NCBI GenBank assembly: GCA_903926465.1
Contig: CAIYJE010000196.1
Location: 1 to 64,000, forward strand
Direction of reading: 5' to 3'
Source: an uncultured Planctomycetales bacterium
GTDB lineage: Bacteria; Planctomycetota; Planctomycetia; Isosphaerales; Isosphaeraceae
Length of the DNA: 64,000 bases
Part shown: positions 57,156-64,000 of the stretch, one piece after another
Numbering within the stretch: the first letter of the stretch is position 1
Layout of the letters: each line of letters begins with the position of its first letter
The notes under the pieces: model-generated
Told to the model about the DNA's origin: nothing
The model's input: only the letters and a program-made list of their open reading frames with translations
The model's database searches: none
Made by a program: the position numbers and the translations under genes

Positions 57156-58370
57156 TCAGGCTACGGCTGTGGGAACCAGTCGCTGCATCAGGGCGACCTT
57201 CAGGACGTCGTTCACAATGAGGCAAGAAACCAGCGCATACCCAAAGATGGTGGACATCTGCCACCAAGGCAGCGGCGCAAGACCAGGAAGCCCCAAAATT
57301 GCCAAGATCGTGCCTACAACCGCATTGGCCATGAGCGCCGTAATTACACTTTTGCTGGGCATGGTCGCCCAGAACAAGCGTCTTTCACGCGCAGACAGAA
57401 CTGAGAATACCGCAAAATAGAGCAACACCAGGAAGCTAAAGGTGTGGAGTGGCTTGTCTTTGATGTTAGCGATTGGTGCCAGGCCAAAACGTGACCAGCA
57501 AACATACAACAAGGGTAGCGCCTCGGCGACCATCGCCACGCCCAAGACGGCCGACACCGTGATGAAGCCGCCAATATTCCAGGTCTCCGGCCTTCGGGAC
57601 GGCCGAACATGATCGGTGGCAAGCGTGATTTTGGAGAAGTTGGTCATAAACGTAAGTAGAAGCATCGCAAAGGCCGAGACTACAAACTGACCGGTCACTA
57701 CAAACGCGATGGCCACGAACGCCGACTTCAGGATTGCGCGGCTGATCTTGTTGATAATCCATGTCTGCACCCGCTGGTAGATGATCCGCCCTTGCTCGAC
57801 TAACGCCACGATGTCTGTCAGCCCCTGGTCGGTCAAAACAACGCTCGCGGACCCTTTGGCAACGTCGGTGGCGCTACTCACGGCAATTCCAACTTCGGCC
57901 TGACGCAACGCCGGCGCATCATTGACGCCGTTGCCCGTCATCCCCACCACATGTCCGGCAGCTTGCAAGTGCTGGACGACTAAGTATTTGTCCTCTGGAT
58001 AGACCTCGGCAAGCCCATTGGCACCTGCCAGAAGATCTGTCGCTTGACGACCCGGCTGTGCGCTTGCCGCCTTTAAATCGGAGGCACGCCGAATATTCGT
58101 TAAGCCGACTCCCTTGCCAATCTCGCAGGCCACGGCCAGTGCATCGCCGGTCAGCATCTTGACCGAAACGCTCAAATTGCGAAGTTCCAGAATGAGTTGC
58201 TGCGCATCTGGCCGGGGTAGATCGTACAAAGTGACCAGCCCAACCAGTGCGGGAGTGCCTGTTTCTGAGCCCTGCGCCACCGCGGGAGAAGGTGGCCGGA
58301 ACGGCCGGATGAGGGAGACCGGGCCGATCCAAAACGCGTTGGTAATATCAAAACATGGGCTTGCACGCAC
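57156..58370 (-). pseudogene. C-terminal part of a P-type (plasma-membrane H+-ATPase-like) ATPase
   Basis: Remnant of a P3A-type proton ATPase. It begins in the phosphorylation/nucleotide domain (SETGTPALVGLVTLYDLPRP, ELRNLSVSVKMLTGDALAVA) and includes IRRASDLK, the hinge motif MTGNGVNDAPALRQAEVG, and six C-terminal helices (for example SAFAMLLLTFMTNFSKITLA). The actuator domain, first helices and the DKTGT phosphorylation site are missing, so it cannot pump. The hinge should read TGDGVNDAP; here the first Asp is Asn (codon AAC, 57930-57932), also damaging for Mg binding. The reading frame otherwise stays open for 404 codons, so decay is recent. The upstream part was removed by a deletion or a rearrangement. 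Confidence 0.85.
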
Positions 58371-59568: not shown

Positions 59569-60300
59569 CTATAGCGGGTTAGTCGAGGCGACATACTTTT
59601 CCAGAAGCGTGAGGAATTCTTGATCGTAGCTCTCATCGACATGATTGTTATTCCACAAGCCAGATGTGCGGACTCGCTCACGCCCGCATTTGATACCCAG
59701 CCAACCGGCAGATGGTGGGTTCAGAGGATTCTTCGCATAGTTGCTCAGAAGGGCAATGCTATTTCGCTCAATGACGCCTCGATCACTCTGTGGACCAGGT
59801 TCATCCTCGATCTTGATCCAAAGGAATGGCATACTGCGGATGTGTTGGCTTACGGCAATCTCCAAATGTTTTTCGCAATGCCCTACTTCCTCACGGGAAA
59901 TGCCAAGCTGGATTGCCGCTTTTGATGCATCATTCCCGATGTCCCACGAAACGGCGTCTTGAAACAGGCCACAACCTTTGAGCGACTCGCCGACAAGAAG
60001 GCGAAAAATTGATCCTCGGTGATTTCCGCCGCCCGAACTCGTACCACGATGCTGAGAAAGTCGTTGCCATAAAGAACTTTGGGAGCCAGCTTTTAATGCG
60101 TGCGTCCCAACTCGGACAATGCGAAGACGATTGCTCCCATCAGAACACGTTTCTCCAGGTTCGAAGAAGAAATAAACGCCGCGATTCGGCCATCTCATTC
60201 GGCCATTACAAGGTTCCAATGTGTGTAAACCGTACAGGCGCACCTTGAGCGAATCAAGAATGCCATAGAACCGATTAAGATCAGAAGTTCTATCCCCCAT
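59569..60300 (-). CDS. GIY-YIG nuclease-like protein
   Basis: Protein of 243 residues with a probable GIY-YIG nuclease fold. The two half-motifs appear as RGVYFFFEPGE (Y43) and RIVRVGTHALKA (62-66), with the conserved Arg in SLWQRLSQH (R80) and a Glu in GVIERNSIALLSNY (E178, N180), matching the order Y-Y/V, R, E, N of the family; the second tyrosine is replaced by Val-Arg. The C-terminus has WLGIKCGRERVRTSGLWNNN. Nuclease activity is plausible but unproven. Its ATG lies inside the last codons of the DUF6884-like gene (11-base overlap), so it is the last gene of the four-gene operon. Homologues next to DUF6884 genes are known to me as hypothetical proteins. Confidence 0.75.
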   Translation of the reverse strand: MGDRTSDLNRFYGILDSLKVRLYGLHTLEPCNGRMRWPNRGVYFFFEPGETCSDGSNRLRIVRVGTHALKAGSQSSLWQRLSQHRGTSSGGGNHRGSIFRLLVGESLKGCGLFQDAVSWDIGNDASKAAIQLGISREEVGHCEKHLEIAVSQHIRSMPFLWIKIEDEPGPQSDRGVIERNSIALLSNYAKNPLNPPSAGWLGIKCGRERVRTSGLWNNNHVDESYDQEFLTLLEKYVASTNPL

Positions 60301-60730
60301 TTTTTCCCAGCCAGCTCAGTTGCTCACCAATCTTGAGACCTTCCATTGGTACTTCAATGGCTACCTTTCGCTTCTGAAGATGGCCAATTAGAAATTCGCG
60401 GTACCTTTGTCCGGCAAGAAAAACAGCCGTCTCGAATTGGGGTATTACGGCTTGGATCTGCGAATTCACCCTATCAGCCCATTTTCGCCTGTCGGCGATT
60501 GGCATGTTGTTCAATGTTTTTTCGTAAGGTTCAATGATCTGATCGGGACTCACCAAACCATATTCTGCGGACAAAATAAACCACGGACAACCTCTGGATT
60601 CAGCAAAGCGACGCGCCTTCTTGAACCAAGACGATGCATATAAGTCTTTAGCTGTCGCGGGACGAGGAAGTTTTTCCCCGACACACGAAACAAAATACAC
60701 GGTGTTATCAACTTTGGTAATTTGCTTCAT
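60290..60730 (-). CDS. DUF6884-like protein
   Basis: Protein of 146 residues. Motifs typical of DUF6884: an N-terminal strand YFVSCVGEKLPRPATAKDLY, then WFILSAEYGLVSPDQIIEPY and ADRRKWADRV. The sequence is distantly like YaaA/DUF328-type proteins and has no catalytic motif I can certify. It overlaps the DUF262 gene's stop by four bases (ATGA) and the following gene by 11, so all are translated together. DUF6884 genes occur in phages and in defence-type neighbourhoods; a link to nucleic-acid modification or sensing is only a guess. Confidence 0.85.
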   Translation of the reverse strand: MKQITKVDNTVYFVSCVGEKLPRPATAKDLYASSWFKKARRFAESRGCPWFILSAEYGLVSPDQIIEPYEKTLNNMPIADRRKWADRVNSQIQAVIPQFETAVFLAGQRYREFLIGHLQKRKVAIEVPMEGLKIGEQLSWLGKNGG

Positions 60731-62637
60731 CCAGCCCTCGCAATCGTCTGCTGAGCTTGGGTTGTATCCTCATCGGCCTCTACATCTTCGCCTTCTTCTT
60801 GAACATCGCCGGTGTATGCCACCCTACCGGTCGCTCGCTCGATCAGTGACAGCAGCTTCTTTTGCCGATCAACCATGAATTTATCAAAACTATCCGCTCG
60901 AAGCAGCAACGGGTCGATCAGATGCGATTTCAGAAAGCCATCGAGGTTCACAGAATTAATCTTCGGTGTAGTCGAATTGCCTGATTCTAATTTGGAAAGG
61001 TACTCGGATGGAGCAACACCGCCGATGATCCGATTGGTTCGATAGGAAAGCGGTGTCTTGTTGATAATTGAGTCATACACGCTCGGCTTTATGCCCTGCT
61101 TCTTGCACCAGTCCTGTGGGAAGATGTGATGTATGTCTACATTCTCACCGAAAAAGATCGTGTGATCGAACTTCTGACCAGAACGAAAATCCTGTGCGCC
61201 TTCCTTCATCAGCAATGCGTTCATGCCTTTGTAGGCTGCTGATAGTCGCATACGCATGGTCTTTAGTCGGTCGGCTCGGAACATCGTTTCACTGACCGTT
61301 GACGGTTCGGGGCCTCCTTTCAACCACACGGGCACTTCCATGAAGTCGCGAGCTATCCGCGTCTCAACCGCAGAGCCATAAAGCTCGCCGAAGACACCGT
61401 TCCAATACCAGCGAACGAGTTTTGCTCGATTCGCTTCATGCTCCCAGGCATCTCCAATATCTGCAAGAATTGCTGCCAAGGGGACAATCTGAGACTGATA
61501 AGGCAAGTCAAAGATGCGGTAGATATGCAGCATGTGCAAGAACTTCGCTGCCTGCTCAAATCCCCGTTCCACCTGCGTTTCAAATCGCTTGTATTCCTCA
61601 AGAGGAAGGTTCAGCAATGCTTGTCGGTTGCCAGATACGGCTGGCAACTCCTTGCCTTGCTTCCCGGCAGCCTCTGCCGCCCTGCGCCGTTCACGGGTGT
61701 GGAAAAGTGAGATGGCCTGAAGGAAGTCAGTGTTAGAAACCCCGGCGATAATACCGGTCTCTGCACCATCGGGTCGGAGCTTTTCGGCCAGTCGGCGATG
61801 CCGCCCCTTAGTGCCGTCGTCCCCGTACCAGTCCTTTCGCAATTCATGGCCGGAAGCCGCGTACATCGCGGTAACCAGCTCAAACGCATCCAGAGCCTTT
61901 CCCCCAGTGTTTACCTTCTCGAATACGACGCAAACGGCTTCTTTAGACGTTGATCGATCAAGAGTGATGACAGGGACTCGGTAATACTTGAAATTCTCAA
62001 GAACCTGTCGTTTGAACGCTCGAAACTCTTCGCGAACGGCCTCGTACTGGTCGCCACGCCAATGTTTATCGAATCCGTCTTGCCACTTGTCCCAATCAAA
62101 GACTTGGGAGACTGGGTACATAAGGGCAGCGTATTCGTTTTCGGCGGTGGAAAGATCCAGAACTGCTTCCCTTCCGAAGTCGGTACGAATGACGCGATCT
62201 TCGGGAACACCGACAATCGCTTCTTCGCGATCAGCCGATTGGTCCAATGCCTTGCGGATATCGACGTAGAACCATCGCTTTACCTTCTTGTTCTTCGGCG
62301 TGACCGTTTCGACAACCTTCCCCCGTAAAGTAACTTGGTAAAGCGAAGTCATTCGCTGCTGGCCATCGAGCAGTAGCGACTGAGGGGCGACTTGTTTCGA
62401 TTCTGGCGGTGCGCCTTCAACCGTTCGAGGTTTGAAATTGACAGGGCCGCCGGTATCAAGCGACATTAAGGCACCAACTGGAAAAGCTCGCGACACCGAA
62501 GCGATCAGGCTCTTAATGCGATCCTCATCCCAAACCCAACTACGTTGAAAATCAGGCAACTGAATAATGCCACGATGACAGTCTTCAAGAAGCTTGTGAA
62601 GATCGAAAGGATTCGTCTGAAAAGTTGATGCAGCCAT
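60727..62637 (-). CDS. GmrSD-like DUF262/HNH protein
   Basis: Type IV restriction or BrxU/SspE-like protein of 636 residues. The N-terminal DUF262 domain has the opening LEDCHRGIIQLPDFQRSWVW, SLIASVSRAFPVGALMSLD and the nucleotide-binding LLLDGQQRMTSLYQ (DGQQR near residue 87). Helical middle with VCVVFEKVNTGGKALDAFEL. The C-terminus has the HNH-like DIHHIFPQDWCKKQG and INKTPLSYRTNRIIGG near residue 500. Both parts are in one chain, as in GmrSD fusions. The ATG at 62637 has AAAGGA eight bases upstream; the frame continues to 62748. It follows the AAA gene by 35 bases and overlaps the next by four. Known GmrSD cuts DNA with sugar-modified cytosine; other DUF262 proteins sense phosphorothioate. 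Confidence 0.9.
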   Translation of the reverse strand: MAASTFQTNPFDLHKLLEDCHRGIIQLPDFQRSWVWDEDRIKSLIASVSRAFPVGALMSLDTGGPVNFKPRTVEGAPPESKQVAPQSLLLDGQQRMTSLYQVTLRGKVVETVTPKNKKVKRWFYVDIRKALDQSADREEAIVGVPEDRVIRTDFGREAVLDLSTAENEYAALMYPVSQVFDWDKWQDGFDKHWRGDQYEAVREEFRAFKRQVLENFKYYRVPVITLDRSTSKEAVCVVFEKVNTGGKALDAFELVTAMYAASGHELRKDWYGDDGTKGRHRRLAEKLRPDGAETGIIAGVSNTDFLQAISLFHTRERRRAAEAAGKQGKELPAVSGNRQALLNLPLEEYKRFETQVERGFEQAAKFLHMLHIYRIFDLPYQSQIVPLAAILADIGDAWEHEANRAKLVRWYWNGVFGELYGSAVETRIARDFMEVPVWLKGGPEPSTVSETMFRADRLKTMRMRLSAAYKGMNALLMKEGAQDFRSGQKFDHTIFFGENVDIHHIFPQDWCKKQGIKPSVYDSIINKTPLSYRTNRIIGGVAPSEYLSKLESGNSTTPKINSVNLDGFLKSHLIDPLLLRADSFDKFMVDRQKKLLSLIERATGRVAYTGDVQEEGEDVEADEDTTQAQQTIARAG

Positions 62638-62672
62638 GGAGGTGATCCTTTCGTTTTTGGGGCCAATGTTCT

Positions 62673-64000
62673 TTATCGACGAGTAAAAGCAAGCGCGCGT
62701 TGTACATAACTTAGCAATTCCGCGTCGTTTATTGTTTCCGTCTCCCACGCGGGGTTCGTGTCATGATGAAAGCGGTTCGCGAACTCAACGAGTTCACGAA
62801 GTTCCTGCGTGTGATGCTGATTGAGAATTTCTTGTGGTGTTCCGACTCGTTGGTCACAAATACCACGGAATGGCCCAAGTAGACTGCCGGGCGGAAAGTG
62901 TTCAGGGCAAGCCACACGAAAGAATGCCTCGATTATTGGCCTAATCGATTTGGCCACTTCGCGATCGTTTCCATTGCTCCTAACCGCATATTCTCTGAGC
63001 CGCGCGTGACGACGATCATGCTCAGTAATGCAGTCTTGGTTGACATCCCATGAAGAGAGAGTTGATCCGGCACCGTCTCGCGTAACTTGGATAGCGGTAA
63101 CGATGGTGCGGTCCGGGTGTTCGGATAAGCGGCACAGAAATGGCTTGCTGTGCGATAAAACGATTACTTGAGCAGTCCGCTGCACGAGACGACGAATCTC
63201 CTGGACGGTTGTTAATGCGCGATGGTCATCCAGGCTTGTAATTGGATCGTCGATGACGACAATCTTGTTCGACAGATTTGGATCCCGATCGACTGAGGCA
63301 AAAAAGAATGCCAGGGCGAGGGTGTTGCGGTCTCCGGCACTCAGCGCCGTTCGGAAGGAGGGAGTTCCGGGAGTTGTTGTGGTTCCGGCAATTGTAATAG
63401 GGTTCTCGTTGATTACGACGCTGTAATTGCAAGTCGGTCCACCACGCGTATCAGCCGCTTCCACGCTACCCAAACGGAAGCTTGCATTAAAGCGGCGTAG
63501 ATAATCGGTGATAGCTGTCTGATACAGAGGAAAGACGGATTGGCGATACTGACTCAAAGCCTCTTTAGCTTGATCCCGAAGGCCCTCAGTGGCCGTCTTC
63601 GCAGCCTTCTCATTGAGATATTCGGTGCAACTCGTCGTAATCACCGACGAATGTCGTGCCTGAACGGATTTGAGCCGGGTGAGGTCCGATTCAATCGCCG
63701 CTACATTACCAGCAGCGGCCTGCTCCTTAACCAAATTGATTGCCTCGCTCGCATCCTGAAGCTGTTGATTTAACTGTACGATGCTAGCTCGATGCTGTTC
63801 ATAGGTTGCAATCGCTGCCAGGGTAATCGCCGACAGTTGTCTCGGTTCAAGTGGCGCGGCCTGTTTTGCATGAAGCTCACCGAGTACGGCTTCACGCGCG
63901 GCACGCCACGCGCGAGCAATATCAGCGGTATCAACTGCAACTTGTGGAAGTTCACAGAACCTAGACCAAAAATGACGTCGCTCTCCACAGACTCGCATTG
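62673..64000 (-). CDS. AAA_13-type ATPase, partial at window edge
   Basis: C-terminal 442 residues of a larger ATPase; the start and Walker A lie beyond position 64000. After a coiled-coil part (IVQLNQQLQDASEAINLVKE and similar) come the ABC-type signature FRTALSAGDRNTLALAFFF, the Walker B KIVVIDDPITSLDDH and the switch His in VIVLSHSKPFL. This layout fits AAA_13 proteins such as RloC/PrrC-like anticodon nucleases and other defence ATPases. The visible C-terminal tail (AVRSNGNDREVAKSIRPIIE, ELRELVEFANRFHHDT) is like those families, but the PrrC-type catalytic residues cannot be verified. It is the first visible gene of the operon. Confidence 0.85.
   Translation of the reverse strand, partial: MRVCGERRHFWSRFCELPQVAVDTADIARAWRAAREAVLGELHAKQAAPLEPRQLSAITLAAIATYEQHRASIVQLNQQLQDASEAINLVKEQAAAGNVAAIESDLTRLKSVQARHSSVITTSCTEYLNEKAAKTATEGLRDQAKEALSQYRQSVFPLYQTAITDYLRRFNASFRLGSVEAADTRGGPTCNYSVVINENPITIAGTTTTPGTPSFRTALSAGDRNTLALAFFFASVDRDPNLSNKIVVIDDPITSLDDHRALTTVQEIRRLVQRTAQVIVLSHSKPFLCRLSEHPDRTIVTAIQVTRDGAGSTLSSWDVNQDCITEHDRRHARLREYAVRSNGNDREVAKSIRPIIEAFFRVACPEHFPPGSLLGPFRGICDQRVGTPQEILNQHHTQELRELVEFANRFHHDTNPAWETETINDAELLSYVQRALAFTRR

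Follow-up and report, generated by a model that had tools for sequence, protein, structure and literature searches.

DpdA puts 7-deazaguanine into phage DNA, shielding that DNA from restriction, and phages in which guanine is replaced by 7-deazaguanines resist many restriction enzymes (PMC6884629). Where that paper touches on DpdC, it cites the protein as a bacterial amidohydrolase of the pathway. In the superfamily that holds DpdC, YaaA, and DUF6884 proteins, the Pfam authors' model of YfjM (DUF6884) flips a nucleotide and YfjM is among the interactors of DNA lesions (PMC11701544); YaaA co-purified with double-stranded DNA, and its loss leads to a higher mutation rate (PMC4834066). On the side of the host, type IV restriction enzymes such as GmrSD and McrBC, as well as Brig glycosylases, sense a modified base and destroy the DNA. 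No host module dedicated to countering 7-deazaguanine phages is known to us. The literature searched yielded nothing on DpdC together with YaaA or on DpdL, and no description of the PADLOC candidate PDC-M57, for which PADLOC states no mechanism.

The window, a 64,000-nucleotide stretch at the start of contig C196 of an uncultured Planctomycetales genome, ends in four minus-strand open reading frames whose positions and spacings (35, −4, and −11 bases) we confirmed. The last two genes of the series, at 59569..60300 and 60290..60730, overlap by 11 bases and encode, respectively, a 243-aa GIY-YIG-like probable nuclease (M57B; PADLOC PDC-M57B, 2.3e-79) and a 146-aa DUF6884 protein of the YaaA/DpdC superfamily (M57A; Pfam, 1e-50; PADLOC PDC-M57A, 1.5e-42). 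For both proteins the match to the model spans nearly the full length, and in this and in its adjacency the pair shows no essential difference from PDC-M57. Upstream are a 636-aa DUF262/HNH gene (60727..62637; Pfam GmrSD_N/DUF262, 1e-27; partial matches to the PADLOC models PDC-M55C and HEC-05), which is accessory and outside the conserved pair, and the C-terminal part of a PDC-S06-like AAA_13 ATPase (62673..64000, coding on to contig position 64415; Pfam AAA_13, 1e-17; PADLOC PDC-S06). The first-pass annotation had named the families AAA_13, DUF262, and DUF6884, and Pfam agrees for these three of the four proteins. The defense setting that it proposed is well supported by the PDC-M57A/B and PDC-S06 matches and by adjoining type III Mod and Res genes and a DrmD-like helicase. 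It knew of no described system with this exact quartet; the last two genes are, however, already PADLOC's uncharacterized PDC-M57. A 404-aa open reading frame at 57156-58370 on the minus strand, which by eye resembles the C-terminal portion of a P-type cation ATPase and lacks a start, is a probable remnant adjoining the island.

Contig C196 stops at position 64666, 666 bp beyond the window and inside an IS66-type element. Its final 243 bases are a repeat with which the transposase begins and which recurs, at 95 to 99% identity, in pieces of three other contigs; the IS66-type label appears apt, judging from our reading of the protein and from an 8-bp duplication. The ATPase reading frame of the window has no Walker A motif. 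Searching the same genome with the N terminus of an intact homologue (L128, genome G002), we found the missing N-terminal part, with Walker A, at C160:204740-205288, the end of contig C160. The 8-bp sequence TCGAAACA is present at both broken ends of the gene, beside the inverted ends GTAACACTTTAGCCG and GTAAGACTTTAGCCG, and joining the halves with one copy of this repeat gives an in-frame, colinear protein of 763 aa that is 50% identical to the intact homologue over its full length. Because of the matching 8-bp duplications and the in-frame join, we conclude that, in this assembly, a transposon has divided the ATPase gene and the locus continues on C160. Extension past 64 kb by way of C160 supplied the start of the ATPase and further genes, and the gene that the first-pass annotation had cast as an NTP-driven switch is interrupted in this genome.

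The genes upstream on C160 encode, in order, an ArdC-like protein, a DrmD-like SNF2 helicase, a type III methyltransferase (Mod; 1e-187), and a type III restriction subunit (Res; 1e-298). The Mod reading frame ends where the Res reading frame starts, and the ResIII and RE_endonuc domains are present. Because C160 carries Res, Mod, and the helicase upstream, the locus is a type III restriction system to which candidate defense genes, one of them broken, have been added. Mod and Res are what it has in common with type III restriction-modification; the genes for the helicase, the ATPase, DUF262, and M57 have been added and are not components of type III systems.

Neighborhoods in other genomes bear directly on the claim that the four genes form one NTP-driven, four-component defense system. 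With the GIY-YIG-like protein as the query, we collected 80 other loci from many phyla (81 with the window), none of which has the same four genes and none of which has an ATPase homologue. A close DUF262 homologue (82% identity) occurs in only three of the 80 (L048, L064, and L066), where it follows the GIY-YIG-like gene instead of preceding the DUF6884 gene. Besides this genome, a survey of 298 genomes of the class found 13 with DUF262 relatives and 2 with ATPase relatives, but none with homologues of both. The tight spacing and shared strand in the window would suit a single system, as would the fact that DUF262 also borders the M57 pair in those three loci. Given the absence of the quartet elsewhere, the split in the ATPase gene, and the run of genes onward into the type III locus, we reject the quartet as a single system and regard such a model as very improbable. 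Rarity of the four genes together elsewhere was the outcome that the first-pass annotation had itself named as refuting its proposal.

The DUF262 gene has ties of its own. Three relatives lie directly 3′ of a type III Res gene (L121, L122, and L127), which makes the gene look accessory to type III loci. Its copy in this Planctomycete-type genome shares 82% identity with those in the Alphaproteobacteria of the three loci above (Brucella and Brevundimonas), whereas the neighboring M57B is only about 50% identical to its counterparts there. Because of this disparity, the DUF262 gene may well have been acquired by a separate, recent transfer.

What is conserved is the last two genes, M57A and M57B, which are a mobile two-gene module. 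A DUF6884/YaaA-superfamily partner is adjacent or fused to the GIY-YIG-like gene in 67 of the 81 loci, a count unbiased toward DUF6884 because the search used the GIY-YIG-like protein only; a YaaA-type partner is absent in 12, in at least 2 of which the GIY-YIG-like gene is cut by a contig end. The pairing is kept in divergent relatives from two other genomes of the phylum (L190 and L191). Eight loci of the set, and one more from this class (L132), carry fusions; DUF6884 comes first in all but L094, so both orders occur. Compact fusions, such as L085, L027, and L065, measure 387 to 407 aa, and other variants have extra wHTH, DUF7662, or HEPN-like domains. Across 34 loci the distance matrices of the two proteins correlate (r = 0.68; maximum of 5,000 permutations, 0.30), a value to which shared ancestry of the hosts contributes. 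The module is patchy (5 of 343 genomes of the phylum) and is found also on plasmids and on contigs classed as viral. On haloarchaeal plasmids an HNH gene was considered as another possible partner, but it lies on the opposite strand and is not operonic. An HhH-glycosylase-like reading of the N terminus of the L021 fusion was dropped because Pfam gave no match and none of the loci held a relative. Three methanogen loci (L051:9902-12139, L078:2223-3677, and L088:10585-12876) lack the DUF6884 partner; their GIY-YIG-like genes adjoin, or are fused with, a related protein of nitrilase-like appearance (by eye).

The label GIY-YIG, given to M57B in the first-pass annotation, stood as regards motif order and predicted secondary structure and found no counterpart in Pfam or Foldseek matches. 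Residues Y43, G65, R80, and H84 are invariant and E178 is near-invariant among 59 relatives. In the predicted model (pLDDT, 95.9), strands and helices follow in GIY-YIG order, and the motifs GVY (41 to 43), VG (64 to 65), R80/H84, and E178 fall on strand, strand, helix, and helix, as in relatives of Eco29kI; R63 takes the place of the second Tyr of the classical motif. M57B shares with Eco29kI-type enzymes the order and spacing of the GxY, VG, R-x3-H, and E motifs but differs from them in having a long insertion, no significant profile match, and no methyltransferase partner. Pfam gave no match for M57B and GIY-YIG in none of the 59 relatives, which leaves the order of the motifs and the predicted secondary structure as the basis of the assignment. 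Foldseek gave no convincing match for the M57B model (PDB and BFVD) or for a fused DUF6884-GIY model (PDB); a match to AF0587 (2q07; probability, 0.75; E, 0.29) was not relied on. PDB sequence searches with a divergent M57B and with viral DpdA/TGT proteins returned nothing useful. Against two GIY-YIG profiles, the M57B profile scored above 199 of 200 column shuffles, though with an hhalign probability of 3 to 7%; this comparison is insensitive because the same method fails, equally weakly, between two true GIY-YIG families. On its motifs and predicted secondary structure, M57B is likely a GIY-YIG protein and a probable nuclease.

M57A has an invariant C16 and K20 and an LSA (LSAxxG) motif. It matches PADLOC models of DpdC (1e-6 and 4e-5), of which it has half the length, and, weakly, YaaA, for which we know of no link to deazaguanine. 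By these model matches and its CxxxK motif (C16 and K20), M57A is related in sequence to DpdC. Profile and homology searches found no DpdA or other Dpd gene beside the pair in the window.

A link to deazaguanine chemistry comes instead from relatives. In the virus HRTV-29, a DUF6884 gene overlaps dpdA (L208:4986-6111), and in the phage phiFN37, a DUF6884 gene lies between genes for a TGT and a queuosine-precursor transporter (L207:6134-8015). These viruses are unrelated, and their DUF6884 proteins have the same compact size as M57A. TGT-type enzymes in their best-known form act on tRNA; among other phages, 146 records hold relatives of the phiFN37 TGT, and the annotation of several names a queuosine or queuine transferase. 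DUF6884 is fused to a TGT in L008, and L013, which has the TGT part in common with it, matches the DUF6884 family at its N terminus. The CxxxK and LSAxxG motifs are common to M57A and the DpdA-associated viral DUF6884 proteins in an alignment. Most of the viral DUF6884 neighborhoods inspected, however, have no annotated deazaguanine genes. Stand-alone viral DUF6884 proteins such as those of phiFN37 and HRTV-29 are candidates for an uncharacterized step of viral 7-deazaguanine DNA modification.

A QueC-type gene lies directly upstream of one M57 fusion (L065), but among other defense-like genes, and in the same search that gene is close to a QueC-like CBASS protein (Cap9). The Planctomycete island in question (L065:8242-14797) holds a type III Mod remnant, the QueC-type gene, the M57 fusion, a Res fragment, a SIR2-like plus P-loop protein (by eye), and a nucleoside deoxyribosyltransferase-like gene, placing M57 beside possible deazaguanine chemistry.

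The explanation that fits best as a whole, which we hold tentatively and at somewhat less than even confidence, is that the M57 module at the 3′ end of a type III locus couples recognition of a modified base to cutting. We infer that M57A would bind the DNA of an invader and flip or recognize a noncanonical base through its invariant Cys-x3-Lys pocket; that this base would most plausibly be a 7-deazaguanine derivative, as in DpdA-encoding phages; and that M57B, encoded by the overlapping gene or as part of a fusion, would nick or cut the DNA nearby. Next to the type III enzymes, the pair would then serve against viruses as a type IV-like, modification-dependent restriction system. The proposed logic is that of GmrSD, McrBC, and the Brig glycosylases, but the protein families differ, and GmrSD domains occur in the neighboring DUF262 gene, not in M57. 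The least certain step is the substrate, and that it is 7-deazaguanine is doubtful; it is likelier, and on balance probable, that M57 is some kind of cutting unit directed at modifications or lesions, an excise-and-nick unit included.

Under that last variant, M57A would remove or edit the modified base in foreign DNA and M57B would cut the resulting site, as in Brig-type defense but with a dedicated nuclease. The invariant Cys and Lys point to an enzyme more than to a protein that just reads the base, the DUF6884-TGT fusion ties the family to base exchange, and both base-excising and modification-stripping defenses exist (Brig1 and Brig3/BapA). Brig proteins, however, belong to the uracil-DNA-glycosylase superfamily, so Brig1 and Brig3 were rejected as relatives of M57; no glycosylase similarity of M57A was found, and PMC6884629, where it mentions DpdC, describes an amidohydrolase rather than a base remover. 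We consider this variant unlikely. A DNA-repair pair, M57A recognizing a damaged base and M57B incising, with no antiviral role, would accord with YfjM as a lesion interactor (PMC11701544) and with the mutator effect of YaaA loss (PMC4834066); its patchy occurrence, its place beside type III restriction-modification and PADLOC candidates, and its presence on plasmids and viral-classed contigs make such a role improbable.

The L008 fusion to a TGT, an enzyme best known for acting on tRNA, could also point to an RNA-directed effector, in which the pair would recognize a modified tRNA and the GIY-YIG-like protein would cut it, stopping growth. Yet the motifs of M57B resemble those of the DNA-cutting Eco29kI-type enzymes, and the viral DUF6884 partner DpdA acts on DNA (PMC6884629); we give this explanation little credence.

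Because the M57 module was already listed by PADLOC, what is new here is its proposed function and the corrected anatomy of the locus, in which the quartet resolves into a type III locus and separable modules. It is possible, if rather doubtful, that M57 is the first defense module in which a sensor of the DpdC/YaaA kind for 7-deazaguanine phage DNA is coupled directly to a GIY-YIG nuclease. The compact fusions (L085, L027, and L065) make a single-gene test possible. If M57 does target 7-deazaguanine phages, an uncharacterized PADLOC candidate gains a testable substrate, and the module would be a countermeasure to phages that encode DpdA.
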